64,000 nucleotides of DNA, from assembly GCF_026151205.1 (NCBI RefSeq), contig NC_087082.1, positions 942,501 through 1,006,500 on the forward strand, read 5' to 3'. The position numbers were made by a program, and so were the translations under genes. Below, piece after piece: positions 11,803-42,861 of this stretch. Each line of letters opens with the position of its first letter. The stretch's first letter is position 1. The DNA is from Bolinopsis microptera. Taxonomy: Eukaryota; Ctenophora; Tentaculata; Lobata; Bolinopsidae. The notes under the pieces are model-generated. The model made no database searches, was not told the origin of the DNA, and worked only from the letters and a program-made list of their open reading frames with translations.

Positions 11803-11864
11803 CTCCTGGACCACAGTGGAACCAGTGTCAAATTTACTATGAGTCGTCAAGGAGTTGATATATT

Positions 11865-13466
11865 CACTTGTGAGTTGTGTGGAGTACTCTGTTCCAGTAA
11901 CTTGGCACCTCACTTGTGAGTTGTGAGGAGTACTCTGTTCCAGTAACTTGGCACCTCACTTGTGAGTTGTGAGGAGTACTCTGTTCCAGTAACTTGGCAC
12001 CTCACTTGTGAGTTGTGAGGAGTACTCTGTTCCAGTAACTTGGCACCTCACTTGTGAGTTGTGAGGAGTACTCTGTTCCAGTAACTTGGCACCTCACTTG
12101 TGAGTTGTGAGGAGTAATCTGTTCCAGTAACTTGGCACCTCACTTGTGAGTTGTGAGGAGTACTCTGTTCCAGTAACTTGGCACCTCACTTGTGAGTTGT
12201 GAGGAGTGCTCTGTTCCAGTAACTTGGCACCTCACTTGTGAGTTGTGAGGAGTGCTCTGTTCCAGTAACTTGGCACCTCACTTGTGAGTTGTGAGGGGTA
12301 CTCTGTTCCAGTAACTTGGCACCTCACTTGTGAGTTGTGAGGAGTACTCTGTTCCAGTAACTTGGCACCTCACTTGTGAGTTGTGAGGAGTACTCTGTTC
12401 CAGTAACTTGGCACCTCACTTGTGAGTTGTGAGGAGTAATCTGTTCCAGTAACTTGGCACCTCACTTGTGAGTTGTGAGGAGTGCTCTGTTCCAGTAACT
12501 TGGCACCTCACTTGTGAGTTGTGAGGAGTACTCTGTTCCAGTAACTTGGCACCTCACTTGTGAGTTGTGAGGAGTACTCTGTTCCAGTAACTTGGCACCT
12601 CACTTGTGAGTTGTGAGGAGTACTCTGTTCCAGTAACTTGGCACCTCACTTGTGAGTTGTGAGGAGTACTCTGTTCCAGTAACTTGGCACCTCACTTGTG
12701 AGTTGTGAGGAGTAATCTGTTCCAGTAACTTGGCACCTCACTTGTGAGTTGTGAGGAGTGCTCTGTTCCAGTAACTTGGCACCTCACTTGTGAGTTGTGA
12801 GGAGTGCTCTGTTCCAGTAACTTGGCACCTCACTTGTGAGTTGTGAGGAGTGCTCTGTTCCAGTAACTTGGCACCTCACTTGTGAGTTGTGAGGAGTGCT
12901 CTGTTCCAGTAACTTGGCACCTCACTTGTGAGTTGTGAGGAGTGCTCTGTTCCAGTAACTTGGCACCTCACTTGTGAGTTGTGAGGAGTGCTCTGTTCCA
13001 GTAACTTGGCACCTCACTTGTGAGTTGTGAGGAGTACTCTGTTCCAGTAACTTGGCACCTCACTTGTGAGTTGTGAGGAGTACTCTGTTCCAGTAACTTG
13101 GCACCTCACTTGTGAGTTGTGAGGAGTGCTCTGTTCCAGTAACTTGGCACCTCACTTGTGAGTTGTGAGGAGTGCTCTGTTCCAGTAACTTGGCACCTCA
13201 CTTGTGAGTTGTGAGGAGTACTCTGTTCCAGTAACTTGGCACCTCACTTGTGAGTTGTGAGGAGTGCTCTGTTCCAGTAACTTGGCACCTCACTTGTGAG
13301 TTGTGAGGAGTGCTCTGTTCCAGTAACTTGGCACCTCACTTGTGAGTTGTGAGGAGTGCTCTGTTCCAGTAACTTGGCACCTCACTTGTGAGTTGTGAGG
13401 AGTACTCTGTTCTAGTAACTTGGCACCTCACTTGTGAGTTGTGAGGAGTGCTCTGTTCCTTGGCAC
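11865..13466. repeat. 46-bp minisatellite, ~35 copies
   Basis: The unit contains TTGGCACCTCACTTGTGAG, TTGTGAGGAG and CTCTGTTCCAGTAAC. Nearly all variation is at one spot after GAG, where units read GTACT, GTGCT or GTAAT. GTGCT forms dominate from about 12750 on. ACTTGTGAGT and TTGTGAGG give internal symmetry. No coding frame runs through it. Confidence 0.95.
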
Positions 13467-29230: not shown

Positions 29231-29239
29231 TTTATTCTC

Positions 29240-32200
29240 TCAATCACATGACACCTCAATGGAGTAGCCGGCATTCTCCACCTGCTGAATGCTCCTGTAA
29301 TCAAGTTGGTCCACAGTTACAGAGTTAGAGTCCATGTGCTCCCTGACGGTAGTAGGACGGTACAGGGTGGAGAACAGTACGGACAGAGTGAACGAGCCTA
29401 TCAGCACGTAATTTAGCTTATCTCTGTGTGCTTCATCAACTGAGGGAAATCAATGTGGTAACTTCGTCATGGTGCAACAAGTTTACACTCATTAATGAAC
29501 CAGTTTGTATCAGTTAATGAAAACTTAATTTTAAGATACAAAAGTTTGCAAGTGGCAGTCACATCAATACATTAATGTAAATCAGCAAATCATAACAAAA
29601 TACTACATAATATTACATAATATTACATAATATTACATAATATTACATAATACTACATAATATTACATAATACTACATCACATTACATAATACTACATAT
29701 TATTACATAATATTACATAATACTACATAATATTACATAATACTACATATTATTTGCACATTACCTAAATGAGGAATCTGAATAAGAGCAATGAAAAACA
29801 GAGACATCAGCTGATTTCCCAGAACCATAACTGTCGAACTCAGGTCCTCACTTACTGGATGACTTGATTCTGCGCTCATGTCAAAGAACAGTGGTGCAGC
29901 TCCTGAATGTTATACGTAGGTAACGTAGCTGCAGAAATACAAGAATTTAACTGGGATTCTTTGTAAGTAAGACTCAGTCTAGATGAGATGATATAAACTA
30001 TATATATATATGACATGAGATTACTTACCAGTAAGACACATAACCCCAACTATAACAGTAACCCACACTACAGTCATGTTACGGGGTAGCCAGTTCTCTA
30101 ATTGTGCTACAAACACTGTCATTGTACTAGTTCCTGTCACGAGGAACAATATTGTCATTATTTTCTGAAATATTAGAGAAATTAGAGGGGGAATCTTCAC
30201 AATCTAACACTCGTATTCATGCAAATAAATCATTTTAAGTTCACCTCAGATAAATAAATGATAGAATAAAATATTCACTAGACATTTTAACGCAACGGCA
30301 GTGGCGTAACAAAGCGACCTGCGACCTGCACACGTCCAACTTGGCAGCAAAATGTACCATATCACGGCCAACTTGGCGTTCGGTCGACGTGGAAAAAAAT
30401 TGACGGTACAAAAAGCTGCGTAAACAGCCTGAGGGGGGAGGGCGGAGGCCGAGGGGGGGGGGGGGGGGGGGGTTTCCAAATGATTACGCTAGTGTAATTT
30501 TGACACAATGTGTAAAACTGATTACGGAGGGGCCGGGGGAGGGGGGTTAAAAATTGGCCAAAATTAATTACGTTATATGTGAACGACCCCTTAATATTCA
30601 GGATATGAAAAAATGTTAGGGGCGTCAATGGTCGATGCAAATAGTAACGTCACTGTGCAACCGGCAACGTGCACTGCTCACACTTTCTCGCAGTCCAGAT
30701 TTTACAAACTGGCAGTAAGTAAATTACGATATTAGTGAAGATGATATCGCTCATCGCTCCATTACTCATGACAGGTTGTGTCTCATACATTCATGCAAGC
30801 CCGCTGAAGCACACTCGAAACAATCTAAAAATTAACTAGGGATGCGCGCGCACTATGCGCGTACAATTTCGCGCAGATACATCTGATATTTATTCAAGAG
30901 CGTGTTCCATTTTAGTACACATAATTCTAATTATAGATAGCACTTGCCACAGCTGTTAAAGATGAGCTCATAATGTTGTTATCGTCAACCACAACATCAC
31001 AATAAAATAGGATGTACAAAAGGATCCAATTCTGTGTAACAAACCTTGCGTCTGGGAAACATTCCGCCCAGGCCACCAATAATAAGATTTGCTGGAACGC
31101 AAGACAGCAGCGCTGCGAAACCTATGTATCCTGCCTCTGCTTGCGAAATACCACATTTTGTTACGATCGTGTCTAAAGTGAGACCGTACCCGTTGAATGT
31201 GCCGCTGTAATAATGAGAATGAAACAGGTGCACGTATCTTCATTAGATTAGCTTAAGTAACACCAGCGTAATACAATTTTTCTTTTGTTTAGAAAAAGAA
31301 GGCCCGGACTTGATAAGGTTGATAAGGTACTTGATAATACTCACGTTGTTAATGAGAACATGAGAACGGCCAGCCAGAAATTGCCACGTTTCAGTAAAAT
31401 CTTCACTCCCTGAAGAAATATGACTGTTAATTATCAATCTGGGAAGGAATCGTGTCTGTGCGAGACAGATTCCAGCGTTAAATCAGATGAGAGTGATTAG
31501 TGAACCGGTTTCAAATTTCAACGGGGATCTGCGCCCATATTTCTTATCAGCGTATTTGCAACCATACTGCAAACATTCTAGTAAATAAGTGATTTATTTC
31601 CCTGGTAAAATACAGATAAAATACGAATAAATTAATAAATTAATAAATGAATGGATGCTACCTCTTTGATGTCGAGCCTGGCTGTAACGGAGGAAGCGGT
31701 GGGTGCATAACGAGGTCGAGAGGGGAAGTAGATGACAGAAAATACCAAACATAGTATCATACAAGCTCCCTGGATCACCAAATACCACCTGAGTGTTAAT
31801 GATGAAATAACACCAGATACTGAGTGTTAATGATGAAAGAACACCAGATACTGAGTGTAAATGATGAAATAACATCAGAGCAAAGAGTTCAGCAAAATGT
31901 AACAAACAATGTTGAACCAGAGATTTGTTGATTGTCATTCTCACACAAAATCATGTCATTCAAATTGTAAGTTGTTGATATACAATTTTTAGAGCATTTT
32001 AAAGATGTAAATTGTAAAATAACCTTAATCCTGTTGAGTAGTCAATGTCCTCCGCTGTATCAGTTACAAGTCCTAGCGTCGAGACTAGCGATGTGTCTGT
32101 AGAGTTAGGTTCAGGGAGTAGACTGGGTCCCAATATGAACGGTACTGCAACACCTGTTATACACCTGTTATAGACTGGGTCCCAGTATGAACGGTACTGC

Positions 32201-35200
32201 AACACCTGTTATACACGTGTTATAGACTGGGTCCCAGTATGAACGGTACTGCAACACCTGTTATACACCTGTTATAGACTGGGTCCCAGTATGAACGGTA
32301 CTGCAACACCTGTTATACACGTGTTATAGACTGGGTCCCAGTATGAACGGTACTGCAACACCTCTTATACACGTGTTATAGACTGGGTCCCAGTATGAAC
32401 GGTACTGCAACACCTGTTATACACGTGTTATAGACTGGGTCCCAGTGTGAACGGTACTGCAACACCTGTTATACACCTGTTATAGACTGGGTCCCAGTGT
32501 GAACGGTACTGCAACACCTGTTATACACCTGTTATAGACTGGGTCCCAGTATGAACGGTACTGCAACACCTGTTATACACGTGTTATAGACTGGGTCCCA
32601 GTATGAACGGTACTGCAACACCTGTTATACACGTGTTATAGACTGGGTCCCAGTATGAACGGTACTGCAACACCTGTTATAAACGTGTTATAGACTGGGT
32701 CCCAGTATGAACGGTACTGCAACACCTGTTATACACGTGTTATAGACTGGGTCCCAGTATGAACGGTACTGCAACACCTGTTATACACGTGTTATAGACT
32801 GGGTCCCAGTATGAACGGTACTGCAACACCTGTTATACACCTGTTATAGACTGGGTCCCAGTATGAACGGTACTGCAACACCTGTTATACACGTGTTATA
32901 GACTGGGTCCCAGTATGAACGGTACTGCAACACCTGTTATACACGTGTTATAGACTGGGTCCCAGTATGAACGGTACTGCAACACCTGTTATACACGTGT
33001 TATAGACTGGGTCCCAGTATGAACGGTACTGCAACACCTGTTATACACGTGTTATAGACTGGGTCCCAGTATGAACGGTACTGCAACACCTGTTATACAC
33101 GTGTTATAGACTGGGTCCCAGTATGAACGGTACTGCAACACCTGTTATACACGTGTTATAGACTGGGTCCCAGTATGAACGGTACTGCAACACCTGTTAT
33201 ACACGTGTTATAGACTGGGTCCCAGTATGAACGGTACTGCAACACCTGTTATACACGTGTTATAGACTGGGTCCCAGTATGAACGGTACTGCAACACCTG
33301 TTATACACCTGTTATAGACTGGGTCCCAGTATGAACGGTACTGCAACACCTGTTATACACGTGTTATAGACTGGGTCCCAGTATGAACGGTACTGCAACA
33401 CCTGTTATACACCTGTTATAGACTGGGTCCCAGTATGAACGGTACTGCAACACCTGTTATACACGTGTTATAGACTGGGTCCCAGTATGAACGGTACTGC
33501 AACACCTGTTATACACGTGTTATAGACTGGGTCCCAGTATGAACGGTACTGCAACACCTGTTATACACCTGTTATAGACTGGGTCCCAGTATGAACGGTA
33601 CTGCAACACCTGTTATACACCTGTTATAGACTGGGTCCCAGTATGAACGGTACTGCAACACCTGTTATACACGTGTTATAGACTGGGTCCCAGTATGAAC
33701 GGTACTGCAACACCTGTTATACACGTGTTATAGACTGGGTCCCAGTATGAACGGTACTGCAACACCTGTTATACACGTGTTATAGACTGGGTCCCAGTAT
33801 GAACGGTACTGCAACACCTGTTATACACGTGTTATAGACTGGGTCCCAGTATGAACGGTACTGCAACACCTGTTATACACGTGTTATAGACTGGGTCCCA
33901 GTATGAACGGTACTGCAACACCTGTTATACACGTGTTATAGACTGGGTCCCAGTATGAACGGTACTGCAACACCTGTTATACACGTGTTATAGACTGGGT
34001 CCCAGTATGAACGGTACTGCAACACCTGTTATACACGTGTTATAGACTGGGTCCCAGTATGAACGGTACTGCAACACCTGTTATACACGTGTTATAGACT
34101 GGGTCCCAGTATGAACGGTACTGCAACACCTGTTATACACGTGTTATAGACTGGGTCCCAGTATGAACGGTACTGCAACACCTGTTATACACGTGTTATA
34201 GACTGGGTCCCAGTATGAACGGTACTGCAACACCTGTTATACACGTGTTATAGACTGGGTCCCAGTATGAACGGTACTGCAACACCTGTTATACACGTGT
34301 TATAGACTGGGTCCCAGTATGAACGGTACTGCAACACCTGTTATACACGTGTTATAGACTGGGTCCCAGTATGAACGGTACTGCAACACCTGTTATACAC
34401 GTGTTATAGACTGGGTCCCAGTATGAACGGTACTGCAACACCTGTTATACACGTGTTATAGACTGGGTCCCAGTATGAACGGTACTGCAACACCTGTTAT
34501 ACACGTGTTATAGACTGGGTCCCAGTATGAACGGTACTGCAACACCTGTTATACACCTGTTATAGACTGGGTCCCAGTATGAACGGTACTGCAACACCTG
34601 TTATACACGTGTTATAGACTGGGTCCCAGTATGAACGGTACTGCAACACCTGTTATACACGTGTTATAGACTGGGTCCCAGTATGAACGGTACTGCAACA
34701 CCTGTTATACACCTGTTATAGACTGGGTCCCAGTATGAACGGTACTGCAACACCTGTTATACACGTGTTATAGACTGGGTCCCAGTATGAACGGTACTGC
34801 AACACCTGTTATACACGTGTTATAGACTGGGTCCCAGTATGAACGGTACTGCAACACCTGTTATACACGTGTTATAGACTGGGTCCCAGTATGAACGGTA
34901 CTGCAACACCTGTTATACACGTGTTATAGACTGGGTCCCAGTATGAACGGTACTGCAACACCTGTTATACACCTGTTATAGACTGGGTCCCAGTATGAAC
35001 GGTACTGCAACACCTGTTATACACGTGTTATAGACTGGGTCCCAGTATGAACGGTACTGCAACACCTGTTATACACCGTGTTATAGACTGGGTCCCAGTA
35101 TGAACGGTACTGCAACACCTGTTATACACGTGTTATAGACTGGGTCCCAGTATGAACGGTACTGCAACACCTGTTATACACGTGTTATAGACTGGGTCCC

Positions 35201-38200
35201 AGTATGAACGGTACTGCAACACCTGTTATACACCTGTTATAGACTGGGTCCCAGTATGAACGGTACTGCAACACCTGTTATACACGTGTTATAGACTGGG
35301 TCCCAGTATGAACGGTACTGCAACACCTGTTATACACGTGTTATAGACTGGGTCCCAGTATGAACGGTACTGCAACACCTGTTATACACGTGTTATAGAC
35401 TGGGTCCCAGTATGAACGGTACTGCAACACCTGTTATACACGTGTTATAGACTGGGTCCCAGTATGAACGGTACTGCAACACCTGTTATACACCGTGTTA
35501 TAGACTGGGTCCCAGTATGAACGGTACTGCAACACCTGTTATACACGTGTTATAGACTGGGTCCCAGTATGAACGGTACTGCAACACCTGTTATACACGT
35601 GTTATAGACTGGGTCCCAGTATGAACGGTACTGCAACACCTGTTATACACGTGTTATAGACTGGGTCCCAGTATGAACGGTACTGCAACACCTGTTATAC
35701 ACGTGTTATAGACTGGGTCCCAGTATGAACGGTACTGCAACACCTGTTATACACGTGTTATAGACTGGGTCCCAGTATGAACGGTACTGCAACACCTGTT
35801 ATACACGTGTTATAGACTGGGTCCCAGTATGAACGGTACTGCAACACCTGTTATACACGTGTTATAGACTGGGTCCCAGTATGAACGGTACTGCAACACC
35901 TGTTATACACGTGTTATAGACTGGGTCCCAGTATGAACGGTACTGCAACACCTGTTATACACGTGTTATAGACTGGGTCCCAGTATGAACGGTACTGCAA
36001 CACCTGTTATACACGTGTTATAGACTGGGTCCCAGTATGAACGGTACTGCAACACCTGTTATACACGTGTTATAGACTGGGTCCCAGTATGAACGGTACT
36101 GCAACACCTGTTATACACCGTGTTATAGACTGGGTCCCAGTATGAACGGTACTGCAACACCTGTTATACACGTGTTATAGACTGGGTCCCAGTATGAACG
36201 GTACTGCAACACCTGTTATACACGTGTTATAGACTGGGTCCCAGTATGAACGGTACTGCAACACCTGTTATACACCGTGTTATAGACTGGGTCCCAGTAT
36301 GAACGGTACTGCAACACCTGTTATACACGTGTTATAGACTGGGTCCCAGTATGAACGGTACTGCAACACCTGTTATACACGTGTTATAGACTGGGTCCCA
36401 GTATGAACGGTACTGCAACACCTGTTATACACGTGTTATAGACTGGGTCCCAGTATGAACGGTACTGCAACACCTGTTATACACGTGTTATAGACTGGGT
36501 CCCAGTATGAACGGTACTGCAACACCTGTTATACACGTGTTATAGACTGGGTCCCAGTATGAACGGTACTGCAACACCTGTTATACACGTGTTATAGACT
36601 GGGTCCCAGTATGAACGGTACTGCAACACCTGTTATACACGTGTTATAGACTGGGTCCCAGTATGAACGGTACTGCAACACCTGTTATACACGTGTTATA
36701 GACTGGGTCCCAGTATGAACGGTACTGCAACACCTGTTATACACGTGTTATAGACTGGGTCCCAGTATGAACGGTACTGCAACACCTGTTATACACGTGT
36801 TATAGACTGGGTCCCAGTATGAACGGTACTGCAACACCTGTTATACACGTGTTATAGACTGGGTCCCAGTATGAACGGTACTGCAACACCTGTTATACAC
36901 GTGTTATAGACTGGGTCCCAGTATGAACGGTACTGCAACACCTGTTATACACCTGTTATAGACTGGGTCCCAGTATGAACGGTACTGCAACACCTGTTAT
37001 ACACGTGTTATAGACTGGGTCCCAGTATGAACGGTACTGCAACACCTGTTATACACGTGTTATAGACTGGGTCCCAGTATGAACGGTACTGCAACACCTG
37101 TTATACACGTGTTATAGACTGGGTCCCAGTATGAACGGTACTGCAACACCTGTTATACACGTGTTATAGACTGGGTCCCAGTATGAACGGTACTGCAACA
37201 CCTGTTATACACGTGTTATAGACTGGGTCCCAGTATGAACGGTACTGCAACACCTGTTATACACGTGTTATAGACTGGGTCCCAGTATGAACGGTACTGC
37301 AACACCTGTTATACACGTGTTATAGACTGGGTCCCAGTATGAACGGTACTGCAACACCTGTTATACACGTGTTATAGACTGGGTCCCAGTATGAACGGTA
37401 CTGCAACACCTGTTATACACGTGTTATAGACTGGGTCCCAGTATGAACGGTACTGCAACACCTGTTATACACGTGTTATAGACTGGGTCCCAGTATGAAC
37501 GGTACTGCAACACCTGTTATACACGTGTTATAGACTGGGTCCCAGTATGAACGGTACTGCAACACCTGTTATACACGTGTTATAGACTGGGTCCCAGTAT
37601 GAACGGTACTGCAACACCTGTTATACACGTGTTATAGACTGGGTCCCAGTATGAACGGTACTGCAACACCTGTTATACACGTGTTATAGACTGGGTCCCA
37701 GTATGAACGGTACTGCAACACCTGTTATACACGTGTTATAGACTGGGTCCCAGTATGAACGGTACTGCAACACCTGTTATACACCTGTTATAGACTGGGT
37801 CCCAGTATGAACGGTACTGCAACACCTGTTATACACGTGTTATAGACTGGGTCCCAGTATGAACGGTACTGCAACACCTGTTATACACGTGTTATAGACT
37901 GGGTCCCAGTATGAACGGTACTGCAACACCTGTTATACACGTGTTATAGACTGGGTCCCAGTATGAACGGTACTGCAACACCTGTTATACACGTGTTATA
38001 GACTGGGTCCCAGTATGAACGGTACTGCAACACCTGTTATACACGTGTTATAGACTGGGTCCCAGTATGAACGGTACTGCAACACCTGTTATACACGTGT
38101 TATAGACTGGGTCCCTGTATGAACGGTACTGCAACACCTGTTATACACGTGTTATAGACTGGGTCCCAGTATGAACGGTACTGCAACACCTGTTATACAC

Positions 38201-41200
38201 GTGTTATAGACTGGGTCCCAGTATGAACGGTACTGCAACACCTGTTATACACGTGTTATAGGGGTGTAAAAAAGAGTCAATAACGGAGCAATACTGTCCA
38301 CATTACATTTTTATAAACTTAATGACATTGGCGTATTAACCAACCAACTAGAATTCCAGGTAATCATATCTGCAGTTTAACTTAAATTAATTAATTAATC
38401 TTCACTGATTGGTTTAACCCGAATCTCAGGGGGCCTAATTGTCGGCCACCGGCTTACGGAGGGGATCTGAAATATCCAAAAATAGCTCACTTTAAAATAT
38501 GAAGAATCTAACCACGCACTGGTCGGTGGGGTAACGAGACAACAATCTACAATCGTAGTTCCAGACCGTTAATATTCCTGCTCACTAAATTAAAGTTCAC
38601 AAATTGTCGTAATTTGCCCATAAATAGCTGAGAATTTCTGGGCACATTCATTGTTCAGGGAGGTAAAAGACTAACGAACTGAATTACTGGCGAGATGTAA
38701 ACTCTTCAACATTTCAACACTCTTTTACATTCGTTGCAATTCTCCTGTCTAGACATCTCATTCAATGAAATGACCTGATCATATATCTTGCACACCCTTT
38801 TCAAACGTGTGTTTCTCTCATTTCTGATCGTGTCTTTTGTTTCTGCAATGTTTATAGAGATTGTCCTAGCTCTGGTGTTCTGGGTACCGGGAGGATCGGG
38901 AGGTATGTTAACACTTTGTTATAACAACTCTTTATAAAGACTTTTTTATGAGAATTACATATTTTGAAAGTACAGTGATGTTTTTTAAATCTCAGGATGT
39001 TGCTCTGTAATCTGTATCTTTTGAAAAATATAAAAACTAGCAATTTTCAGATTCCAGTTTTACACGGGTTGACAGGTTTGGGAACAGGATAACAGGTGAT
39101 AAGGAAGGACTGGTGCTGTATGACAGTGGAAAGACACGTGGCTATGCATATGATTATGTATATGGAAAGGTATGTGACGATAGATTTAATGATGACGCAG
39201 CTAGTGTTATCTGTAGAGAAATGGGATATCTTACCTTTAACACTTGGAGCACTGGAGATAAGTGGCCCATACAGAGACGATATTCTAACTGATGGGTAAC
39301 ATGAGATGTAGCGGTCCAGAAAGTATTAGCTCTTGTAATCCCACTACTCCTGATCCTTATTGTCAGCGACATCATGACGTATTTCTTAGCTGTACACCAT
39401 GTCCCCCCGGAACTCAACGTGAACGTAAAGAGGACGACTCAGACTGGTGTGGGCAATGTCCTGCCGACACTTACAAGTCTCCCGAGGGAATTGAGGAATA
39501 TTGTACTGATTGCCCCGGTTCTTCTACATCAAAACCCGGTTCTTCTTATTGTACATGTCCTCCAAACTATATTTCAAGTACAGAGGACATGGTATGTATC
39601 TGCCCTGAGGGTCAGAGTTGGGTGTGGGATGGTCTGGGGGTCGGTTTATGTAAAGGTTCCGGTATTGCGTGGTTTTCAGTGGTATTGATCATCGTCATTG
39701 TTGCTCTCGCATTTCTTATCTGTCTGCTGGTCTACGAAAGAATAAAGAGGAAAAAAGAAGAATCTTCTCCATCAAAAGACAGAGGAAGCGTGTATGCAGC
39801 CAACGGTGAAGGTAAAACAAGTGAAGTCCAAACTCAAGAGGAGGTTTGATTATAACCAACACTGCAGAAAAGGAGATGAACTGTGTGATGGGAGGGAAAC
39901 TTCTCTGAGAATGGAAATGTTTACGATATGATTGACAATCTAACTGAAATGATGTGATACTGTTATGACAATTGGGAAGTGTAGGGTGAAAAAAGAGAGA
40001 CTTTCTTAAAAACGTTATATTTTAGTTTAGTTAGCTGGTTCAGTAGTACCCACTGAACTTGTAGTTAATTGTTTTGATTTTTAAGTTTTGAATGAAATGT
40101 TTTTCAATGATTTTAAACTAGCATTAGGAGATGTGCTGTGTAATAAAAGAAAAGGGAAACTTCTCAGAGTGTCAGGATTTTATCGATCTGATTTAGATAA
40201 AGAGCAAAGTACCACAAGCCAGGGCTGAGTGTTTGGCAGTCTGGCTGCAAATATCACGTGATAATAATACTTTATAAGGTACCAGTTTCTTTGTTGTACA
40301 GATTGTCTAGATACTTTGAAATAAAATACATAACTACAATAAACCCTCTGAAAACAGCATTTAAGTGAGAGAGACCAAGAAAATATGTAGTCCTCTAAGT
40401 TTAAGCTCTAGTTCTAGAATTAATTTCTTGTTCTTACTCTAGTATTCTTGCACACCAATAATATAGAAACACGCATCAGCAGGTCATTAGTCGAATCAAC
40501 GTTCATAAATGTGTTTGTAACTTTTTATTTGCAGCCCATTTTATCGACTTTATAAGTTCAAATTGCAACATTAAAAGGTTTACTAAAACTTTTAGTTTGA
40601 ACTCTAATCCGACATCTCTCGATGAGGAACTTTGAAACTATCGGCCGTCTGGACAAATGAAACAGTGACTGGACACTGTACATCATTAGATCACTGTACG
40701 AAGTGAATTTTAAAGGGTTGTACAATTCTGTAATGATTTACAGCTTGGTGCAAACTTGTGTACGCACACAGTACACACCCAATGTTACTAAATGGAAAAT
40801 GGTGGAGATGTGATCGACTTTCCTTATTAATTTTCAGAGCTTAAATTGTGCGATTAACATTTTATCAAAAATGATCCGACCTTGGCGTCAGATGTTAAAG
40901 AGTAAAAAAGGAGTTTAGCCGAAACTGTTTTTATCATACCATCATTCGGACATAAATCCCCAAAAATACTTTTTCAGCACCCAAAACATGATCAAACTGT
41001 CCATGAGGGCCAGGGGTTGTTGGCTAGCAAATTAAAGTATGCAAAGTATGTACTATGTAAAGATAAAGCTTGAAAACTTTACATACCTACGTTCACACAT
41101 GATATTATTATTCCTGCTACAAACAACTGTTCTTTCAATGGAAACCAGTTCACTGAAAAAACGACAGTTATGAACAAATTTGCATTTCAAATCAAGATTC

Positions 41201-42861
41201 TGATAAAAATTATTCATATCAATGCAAATTTAAGTTTTGCTGCTAAAAGTTTATTCTTAGCAATTACAGCATATTAATCAAGACAATTTGAGACTCCGCT
41301 GGATATTTTAAGAGATGAATCAAATCAGTTACGTCTCGCAATCTATAATTATAACTTTATTTTTAATGGAAATTGAAGTTAGTCATAGCTATAGTTATAA
41401 ATCAGTAACTAACTTATTCAGTAACTAACCTGAAATGTACATGATGGAAGAGAAGGGGGCCGCTCCACAGAGCCCGTTAATTATCTGGGTCACGTGTGCA
41501 GTGTAGATAAGGTACTTCATGGGGATCACAGTTACTGATAGAATCTGAGGATTACGACGTGTCGTTCACTTAACAGTGTTTTAAAATATTAAATTTTAGA
41601 ACTTGTTACTTACAGAATCAAACTCAATGATAAATATCAGCTTTAGAAAATTAAACACATATTTGATATGAACTGATCACGTGAAGGCCACGAGGGGAAA
41701 TACCTTGATAATACCGGAGAAGGCAAGAAGAGAAGAGTTAGCTAGCATAACGAATCTCATGTTGGCAGCAGCCATCAGCCAGGGGAAGAGGAGGGCTCCG
41801 GGGACGAAGAAAACTGGCGTCCACAGGGACAACAAACTTACTCTCTGTAGAAAATTATATTAATAACTAAATTTGTACATGGATAAACAGGGATTGGATT
41901 ATCACAGTTTCTTGTTAATGTTTCCGCAACTATAATAGTATTCGTGTACGAAAATTTGCTTTAAAACTGTTTTACGATATTATGGGATGTAGATCTGATA
42001 TTTATTATGTTTATTAATTATGTAAAATTAATGTATATTAATTATGCATAGTATAATATACATTAATTAATAATTATGTATAGTATAATATACATTAATT
42101 ATGTATCATATAAAATGTACAAGTTTCAAATTACCTCGTCACTCCAAAAGTATACTTTCTTCATAACCTCAGTTATTGGCCCCCATGTGTTGCCTGAACA
42201 ATGTCTAAGTTACATCACTTTGTATTACCAGTTAACTGTTAAGTTGTAGCCAAAACAAGGAATCTCTATTATGGTGGGGCTAATTCAAACATTAAAATCG
42301 AGTTTTATTGAACTTGTAAAATTCTAATGTTGTATCTACACGCACAATAGAAATCACCAAGCATTATTTTATAAGCTGAGCGAAATGAACGACTTAAAAC
42401 TAATGACGACGATTTAAACCATAAATCTGACCGAGTAAATTATAAACGTACCGATGAAGTTTTGTATCAGACCCATCCAACAAAGAGTAAAGAGAATATA
42501 CCATCTTGCGGGTGTGGTTCTGAATACCTCACGCGGGACTAGCTGCAGTGGGGGTGAAGTTAGCGGCAACAAGAGAAGAGAAGGAGAAGATAAACATTTC
42601 TACTGCTTCACCGCTAGTTATTTTCTGAGCGCAAAGTCTTAGAGTTGATCAAGTTTCGAAACTTTAAAACGTTTAGACGTTTAAGAAAGGTATTGGGTTC
42701 AGATAGCAGGATAAGGAGTAGCAGAATTATAAGTTATTAATCACCTGACTACTAGAGAGGACTGATCTGAACGAGGCGTCCAGATCATTTCTATTATCAT
42801 TTTCACTAGCACTTCTGAATAATCTGTCCCTATCTTCTGATCGGGCATTGCCTGATCTCAT
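29240..42861 (-). CDS. SLC49-family (FLVCR/DIRC2-type) MFS transporter, 13 exons
   Basis: Exons in transcript order: 42745-42861, 42452-42542, 42135-42193, 41704-41844, 41430-41544, 41087-41152, 32024-32153, 31662-31788, 31345-31409, 31045-31204, 30029-30164, 29765-29902, 29240-29439 (all complement). All introns are GT-AG and every phase matches, giving 514 aa from MRSGNARSED to SIEVSCD. Family marks in order: RWYILFTLCWMGLIQNFIGN then TWGPI (TM1), FPWLMAAANMRFVMLANSSL, INGLCGAAPFSSIM, VNVGVAVPFILGPSLLPEP, a luminal loop, YFPSRPRYAPTAS, TGTFNGYGLTLDTI, QAEAGYIGF and GAAPLFFDMSAESSHPVSED. SLC49 members move haem, choline or similar solutes; the substrate here is unknown. Intron 6 is 8.9 kb and holds the 52-bp array and the SRCR gene. 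Confidence 0.9.
29597..29755. repeat. 10-bp AT-rich tandem repeat in intron 12
   Basis: ACATAATATT/ACATAATACT units repeated about 15 times in the SLC49 intron between exons 12 and 13, starting 10 bases from the exon 12 donor. Confidence 0.9.
30299..30595. mobile_element. Transposon ends and G-run inside SLC49 intron 10
   Basis: CAGTGGCGTAACAAAGC at 30299 matches the hAT-like end at 17662. GTTATATGTGAACGACCCC at 30573-30592 followed by TTA matches a Harbinger-like end (24732). A G-run of about 24 bases lies at 30451-30472. Neither element has its partner end, so this is fused debris. Confidence 0.55.
31789..31873 (-). repeat. Tripled 31-bp 3' splice-site unit before SLC49 exon 8
   Basis: On the minus strand the exon 8 acceptor region TTTCATCATTAACACTCAG is followed upstream by two more copies at 31-bp spacing, ending with AG at 31820-31821 and 31851-31852. 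Each carries the CATTAAC branch-like motif and CAG. Only the innermost joins to coding sequence in the right phase. Confidence 0.85.
32119..38261 (-). repeat. 52-bp minisatellite made of the exon 7 splice acceptor, ~118 copies
   Basis: The unit, read on the minus strand, includes GTATAACAG|GTGTTGCAG, GTACCGTTCATACTGGGACC and CAGTCTATAACACGTG. The copy at 32119-32153 is real coding sequence of SLC49 exon 7 (GVAVPFILGPSL). Every other copy therefore repeats the acceptor plus about 36 nt of exon. Variants (CACCTG for CACGTG, GTGTGAAC for GTATGAAC) cluster within 600 bp of the exon, while distal units are nearly identical. A few units carry one extra C (CACCGTG), making them 53 bp. Each unit has the E-box CACGTG and an imperfect palindrome around it. 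As 52 is not a multiple of 3, readthrough changes frame at each unit. Confidence 0.95.
38262..38847. other. Intron 6 sequence upstream of the SRCR gene
   Basis: Unremarkable AT-rich DNA that may hold the promoter of the plus-strand SRCR gene. No TATA or other site is distinctive. Confidence 0.4.
38848..39849 (+). CDS. SRCR receptor-like membrane protein, nested, with a frameshift
   Basis: Exon 1 (38848-38902) encodes the signal peptide MFIEIVLALVFWVPGGSG. The donor GAG|GTATGT joins phase 1 to exon 2 at 39051. Exon 2 encodes an SRCR domain (GKVCDDRFNDDAASVICREM, GYLTFNTWS), then a stop at 39288-39290. The rest, NMRCSGPESISSC plus a Cys-rich GCC2/GCC3 (ephrin-receptor-like) segment (CTPCPPGTQ, WCGQCPADTYKSPEG), one TM helix (VVLIIVIVALAFLICLLVY) and a basic tail, continues in another frame to 39849. 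One missing base near 39288 would explain the break, so it is a recent pseudogene or a sequence error. It lies in intron 6 of the SLC49 gene on the opposite strand. Confidence 0.75.
39850..41086. other. 3' flank of SRCR gene within SLC49 intron 6
   Basis: AT-rich, with no repeat or extra exon recognised apart from the two AATAAA sites. Confidence 0.45.
40142..40147 (+). terminator. Candidate polyadenylation signal for SRCR gene
   Basis: AATAAA about 290 bases past the SRCR stop; another lies at 40320-40325. Choice between them cannot be made from sequence. Confidence 0.4.

Follow-up and report, generated by a model that had tools for sequence, protein, structure and literature searches.

How might an exon be joined correctly when its own splice acceptor has been copied in tandem over some 6 kb of the preceding intron? 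The question is raised by a 64,000-nucleotide stretch of the genome of the ctenophore Bolinopsis microptera (RefSeq assembly GCF_026151205.1, contig NC_087082.1, positions 942,501 to 1,006,500), referred to here as the window, whose GC content is 39.6%. Its minus strand carries a gene for a predicted SLC49/FLVCR-like transporter, and intron 6 of this gene holds a 52-bp minisatellite whose unit repeats the end of that intron together with the start of exon 7. We favour, with a probability of about 0.78, the reading that this is a minisatellite of the mirage type known from amphioxus, which arose by tandem duplication and is intronic by default, the exon-nearest site being the one used. The features on which the argument turns are listed below (positions are those of the window; a slash within a sequence marks a splice junction).

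29239..42861, minus strand: SLC49/FLVCR-like gene model, 13 exons, 514 amino acids, without internal stop (exon joining, MFS_1 and FLVCR2 matches)
41087..41152, minus strand: exon 6, 66 nt, donor G/GTATGT, phase 1
32154..41086, minus strand: intron 6, 8933 nt
38262..38290, minus strand: flanking sequence outside the repeat, upstream of the distal unit, containing TTGAC and TTTTTTACACCCC (end comparison)
32119..38261, minus strand: 52-bp minisatellite, 118.1 copies (Tandem Repeats Finder, unit counts and end comparison)
32024..32153, minus strand: exon 7, 130 nt, the first 35 nt being the terminal array copy (unit counts, end comparison and alignment to FLVCR chains in the PDB)

Results

Structure of the 52-bp array

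Tandem Repeats Finder, run on the window, places the array at 32119-38261 with a period of 52, 118.1 copies and 99% matches, in agreement with an earlier note on this DNA, which had described 118 copies of 52 bp there. Read on the minus strand, the unit is TAACACGTGTATAACAG/GTGTTGCAGTACCGTTCATACTGGGACCCAGTCTA, that is, 17 nt of the end of intron 6 followed by 35 nt of the start of exon 7. The repeat unit thus spans the exon-intron boundary, the structure that defines a mirage, and the note was right to describe it as a 3' splice site plus an exon start. There are 118 acceptors of the form AG/GTGTTGCAG on this strand, so that the units also carry the AG/GT signals expected of a mirage. The first exon base lies at 38241 for the distal acceptor and at 32153 for the true acceptor of exon 7.

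Of the 117 units ahead of the true acceptor, 94 are identical and 14 share one variant, a C-to-G change that creates a second CAG/GTG; the others comprise four units with one inserted base and five single variants. The first 35 nt of exon 7 differ from the common unit by a single synonymous change (ATA TTG vs ATA CTG), and the 17 nt preceding the true AG are those of the C-to-G variant, which is seen ahead of 15 of the 118 acceptors. Variant units (23 of 117) lie closer to the exon than expected by chance (P=0.0035), as do the five single variants taken alone (P=0.019), and just one variant is located near the edge at the distal end. The exon side of the array therefore seems to be less homogenised; the diverged units do cluster where the note had placed them, and this exon-ward concentration corresponds to the escape of boundary units from homogenisation that is expected of mirages.

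At the distal end, the flanking TTTTTTACACCCC is a pyrimidine-rich (T/C-rich) stretch, found ahead of the distal copy alone. The edges of the 52-bp segment have the trinucleotide CTA in common, in the distal flank, in the unit and on the exon side alike, which would fit an origin by tandem duplication through short microhomology, three bases being weak evidence. The sequence TATAACACGTGTATAAC occurs 108 times genome-wide; 97 occurrences lie on the strand of the array, a number equal to the count within it, and a widely dispersed family was rejected on this basis. The other 11 are on the opposite strand, 8 of them on C10 among the matches listed. There (locus L001, 1997-2280) an 11-bp satellite has TATAACACGTG in common with the intron-derived portion of the 52-bp unit, and the match was rejected. 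RNA folding of six units gave z=-3.35, a value left unused because repeats may inflate it.

The host gene and the exon 6-exon 7 junction

The 514-residue protein matches Pfam MFS_1 (E=8.8e-17), and a 350-residue stretch of it matches PDB chains of FLVCR2 (E=1.4e-6) and FLVCR1 (E=7.3e-5), with similarity across the membrane domain. The gene is thus predicted to encode an SLC49/FLVCR-like transporter, as the earlier note had held, and its minus-strand model is intact over 13 exons. The other introns of the model measure 126-880 nt, against 8933 nt for intron 6. Exons 6 and 7 join as NV-G-VAVPFILGP, without a gap at the join relative to the FLVCR2 and FLVCR1 chains, in support of the junction proposed in the note.

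Of the 118 acceptors, each joined in turn to exon 6, the exon-proximal one alone gives an open frame, and the other 117 all stop at the same in-frame TAA, after VGVAVPFILGPSL. The earlier note's claim that extra units shift the frame is hence incomplete: every non-terminal acceptor leads to one and the same stop. An AG located 9 nt inside exon 7 would, by arithmetic, also keep the frame; it scores -2.88 bits, and its use would shorten the protein relative to both the FLVCR chains and the paralogue described below.

Strength of the repeated acceptors

Splice sites were scored with weight matrices trained on automatic calls made near Pfam matches in the same genome (73 acceptors and 75 donors). 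The acceptor of the common unit, which is also that of the distal copy, scores 3.91 bits, at the 8th percentile of the 73 called acceptors. The pyrimidine fraction of the true site is 0.41 at positions -20 to -4, compared with a median of 0.65 and a single lower value, 0.35, in this first set. Branchpoints were compared with a second set of 73 acceptors (those called above 5 bits plus 11 from the SLC49-like gene). Within their last 60 nt, these reference acceptors contain 39 occurrences of TAAC, 16 of which place the branch A at -16 to -19; the corresponding A in the TAAC of the common unit sits at -15, and the pyrimidine fraction of this unit at -15 to -4, 0.42, is below that of all 73. With TAAC and CAG present and few pyrimidines, the array units resemble acceptors that have all their parts but little strength. 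Among 5-mers preceding the 73 reference acceptors, AACAC shows the highest enrichment (13 occurrences vs 2.7 expected), which suggests a TAACAC-like branchpoint in this genome.

A paralogue and the age of intron 6

All 16 genome matches of the 350-residue stretch fall in two loci, the SLC49-like gene itself and a paralogue at C11:7.10-7.11 Mb (L002). Exon lengths are equal in eight of the nine exons compared (exons 2-6 and 8-10), exon 7 differing by 18 nt. In the paralogue, exons 6 and 7 are separated at the same phase-1 position by an intron of 260 nt, against 8933 nt, which lacks such an array; a weak 14-bp repeat and a G-run are its only comparable features. Judged by this shared position, intron 6 predates the two gene copies, and the array either arose in the SLC49-like copy or was lost from the paralogue.

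Splice-site ladders in other genes

Comparable ladders were sought by reading, by eye, tandem arrays (period at least 12 bp, length at least 40 bp) together with reading frames, at loci cut from the listed matches to four families: 24 of 69 for myosin, 22 of 33 for TCP-1, 21 of 21 for AAA and 14 of 52 for DEAD. First-look candidates scored numbered 65 of 94, 40 of 40, 19 of 113 and 48 of 144, respectively. Thirty-six array rows yielded one case (L017) and 19 partly overlapping rows yielded three loci (L056, L059 and L061); six further rows, in the DEAD sample of 14 loci, contained no ladder. These counts describe sampled genes and are not a genome-wide rate.

The longest of these ladders lies in an AFG3L2-like gene (C3:17640456-17642780; L056 from 2600 and L070 1-1774), in which 105 copies of a 22-bp donor-spanning unit, ATCAGTACAG/GTTAGTTGTCTG, occupy 2324 bp directly after an exon ending in KISTG. 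The gene matches an AFG3L2 chain with E=3e-43, ungapped at the junction, and only the first of the donor copies tested (1, 2, 3, 4, 51 and 105) keeps the frame. Its eight variants near the exon show a trend towards it (P=0.00025); the trend disappears once a five-copy variant from the far end brings the number of variants to 13 (P=0.245). An FtsH-like gene on C13 (L059, about 177-1059; AAA match E=1.0e-17, FtsH chains E=3.5e-4) carries 17 copies of a 52-bp donor-spanning unit, and again only the first of four donor copies tested is frame-keeping. Its inverted partner (reverse complement of L061, 863-1065), 95-96% identical, has four copies; units 2 and 4 lack the donor GT, and the exon-proximal unit keeps it. 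Finally, 4.1 copies of a 31-bp donor-spanning unit are found in a myosin-like gene on C13 (L017, 925-1052), this label resting on position and on similarity by eye, as the exon fragment had no significant Pfam match (best E 0.09) and no PDB match. Splice-site ladders are thus recurrent in the Bolinopsis genome, although they are not the rule.

Three further arrays were not counted: a 72-bp repeat of 3.1 copies with strong acceptor-like sites, which can also be read as an open repeat on the opposite strand and in which no exon start was seen (L008); a 48-bp repeat of two copies that begins 1 nt inside a donor (L011); and a 20-bp repeat that stops at an acceptor and does not copy it (L043).

Other features of the locus

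Intron 7 ends on a smaller repeat of the SLC49-like gene.

31662..31788, minus strand: exon 8
31789..31879, minus strand: 31-bp repeat, 2.9 copies, abutting exon 8 (Tandem Repeats Finder)

The acceptor CACTCAG occurs three times there (at -62, -31 and 0), and only the last gives the reading frame of exon 8. Exon 12 of the model starts at 29902, and a 10-bp array of 16 copies (29595-29754) begins about 10 nt inside the intron beyond its donor. Within intron 6, the plus strand has a gene-like stretch at 38860-39900 with a start that by eye resembles a signal peptide; an SRCR domain (E=8.2e-6) is followed by a frame break, past which the sequence gave no match in a Pfam search and appears by eye Cys-rich and membrane-like. 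This nested stretch is possibly decayed or misassembled. Elsewhere in the window, a 46-bp array of 34.7 copies (11864-13459) has a first unit that by eye looks like zinc-finger coding sequence (FTCELCGVLCSSNLAPH). In the genome at large, a motif resembling the ctenophore spliced leader was found 113 times, against 50 for its reversed control (at most two mismatches), with three exact copies clustered on C13.

Discussion

The most probable history of the array would begin with the tandem duplication of a 52-bp segment made up of the end of intron 6, with its branchpoint-like TAAC and its CAG, and 35 nt of exon 7, probably at the 3-bp CTA microhomology. Slippage or unequal exchange may then have expanded it to about 117 extra copies. 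All copies except the exon-nearest would be removed as intron, and the exon-nearest acceptor would yield the functional mRNA, most simply through exon definition, in which exon 7 would be recognised together with its own donor. We infer all three parts of this scheme, namely the duplication mechanism, exon definition and the copy used by the spliceosome. In its favour, just one of 118 acceptors is compatible with the frame, the gene model is intact over 13 exons, and ladders of like architecture are present in other genes; the array-free intron 6 of the paralogue, the shared CTA, the position of the branch A and the retention of the donor GT by the exon-proximal unit of the four-copy FtsH-like ladder also speak for it.

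Several observations weigh against this scheme. The true acceptor is weak, scoring 3.27 bits, at the 3rd percentile of the 73 called acceptors. The distal copy scores slightly better (3.91 vs 3.27), is alone in being preceded by a T/C-rich stretch and would be transcribed about 6 kb earlier, so that a first-come model would favour the truncated product. Passages of an amphioxus report also allow that mirage units could serve as cryptic splice sites (PMC3087553). Furthermore, ladders were not enriched at junctions overall. In a census of 24-mers across 148 called junctions from 79 exons (10 further calls fell under the score cut-off), a near copy within 1.5 kb was found at none of the 148, compared with 120 of 3300 random 24-mers, and a second set, which had no random control, gave none at 39 junctions. 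If anything, junctions are poor in such copies. The calls were automatic and some were wrong (an acceptor called within the L011 array is an example), and the census missed the ladders described above because these sit at exons outside Pfam matches.

Among the alternatives, the one that survives best treats the array as a ladder of poison acceptors: a share of transcripts that depends on copy number would be spliced to non-terminal units, reach the shared TAA and decay, which would make the array an expression dimmer for the transporter. The common stop reached from all 117 non-terminal acceptors speaks for it, as do the branchpoint-like TAAC and CAG of the common unit, whose score slightly exceeds that of the true site, and the difference in copy number, 17 vs 4, between the 95-96% identical FtsH-like genes. 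However, a frame that runs on into an intron commonly meets an early stop, which does not point to design, and the available passages on amphioxus mirages report that splicing is not disturbed (PMC3087553, PMC3902484). A regulatory role of the array, such as the splicing delay, variant isoforms or repetitive intronic RNA suggested in the earlier note, is possible and must be called putative, and we regard the dimmer itself as unlikely. The broader proposal is about as tentative: long acceptor and donor ladders would recur in ctenophore genes, their copy number tuning output via decoys to early stops, as fast-evolving expression dimmers.

A still less probable explanation is that the array was inflated during assembly, or expanded there from a much shorter repeat. 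Long tandem arrays are difficult to assemble, and the 1-bp insertion in four units could be a read error. Yet distinct variants are interspersed in the array and show polarity, a similar ladder with its own variants exists in another gene, and the published B. microptera assembly, if it is the same one, is described in the part of the report available as gap-closed, haplotig-purged and polished (PMC10232365). Recursive splicing, in which the units would serve as AG/GT ratchet points dividing the 9-kb intron into steps, could draw on the AG/GTG in each unit and on 15 sites with a second CAG/GTGTAT (6.76 bits as a donor, 32nd percentile), but no good donor directly follows the AG at the main junction (CAG/GTGTTGCA, 3.3 bits, 1st percentile of 75 called donors), which makes it unlikely, and we think very much so, while the 52-nt steps are shorter than every intron of the gene model (at least 126 nt).

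The mirage-type reading gives the locus an experimental value. Ladders of near-identical competing splice sites usually need minigene construction; here the genome supplies one of 118 acceptors and one of 105 donors, in both of which the exon-nearest copy is the protein-compatible one. Exon definition, under which the exon-nearest site wins, is thereby set against transcription order or intron definition. A first-come choice would leave little full-length protein, yet the frame is intact, and because the true acceptor belongs to the weakest class and is transcribed last, the locus is a good natural test of these models. It also calls for caution in gene-annotation pipelines wherever introns hold splice-site ladders.

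Comparison with known systems

Our literature search found, by title, no such array in ctenophores, subscription papers being mostly outside its coverage, and found the mirage phenomenon described only in amphioxus. A 1995 paper, going by its title, reportedly concerns a minisatellite that multiplies splice donor sites in the human gene 6-16/IFI6; it would likewise multiply splice sites, but donors, whereas the SLC49-like array multiplies acceptors.

A partial parallel is the gain of introns through tandem genomic duplication of AGGT, by which coding sequence becomes intron when a splice-like segment is doubled (PMC3443670, in the passages available); the duplication of such a segment is the element in common. 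It differs in that the SLC49-like intron already existed, as its position is shared with the paralogue.

The closest parallel is that of the amphioxus mirages, described as tandem repeats over exon-intron boundaries in Adh3 and the globins BflGb6 and BflGb9 (PMC3087553, PMC3902484), as well as in troponin C and PGBD5 (PMC3902484). As far as the accessible passages of these papers go, the earlier note's statement that no such case had been described does not stand: the structure is of the same kind, although the BflGb6 copy numbers are small. Both systems show minisatellite-like tandem duplication of the exon-intron boundary with AG/GT signals in the units, both affect acceptor and donor junctions, and in both the cluster boundaries escape homogenisation. 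Copy numbers are about 118, 105, 17, 4 and 4 in Bolinopsis, compared with 6 and 3 in the amphioxus BflGb6 haplotypes (the comparison does not extend to Adh3). Mirages are also expected to be unstable in length; the SLC49-like array is represented by one assembly, and a related ladder, that of the FtsH-like pair, counts 17 vs 4 copies. Splicing is reported as undisturbed in amphioxus; for the Bolinopsis ladder, correct splicing at the exon-nearest site is a prediction. We therefore file the SLC49-like array as a candidate of the mirage type, in another lineage and with far more copies than BflGb6. Ctenophores belong to another phylum, one that has been put forward as the sister group of the remaining animals; the presence of such arrays in Bolinopsis suggests more than one origin of the mirage phenomenon, or a wider occurrence.

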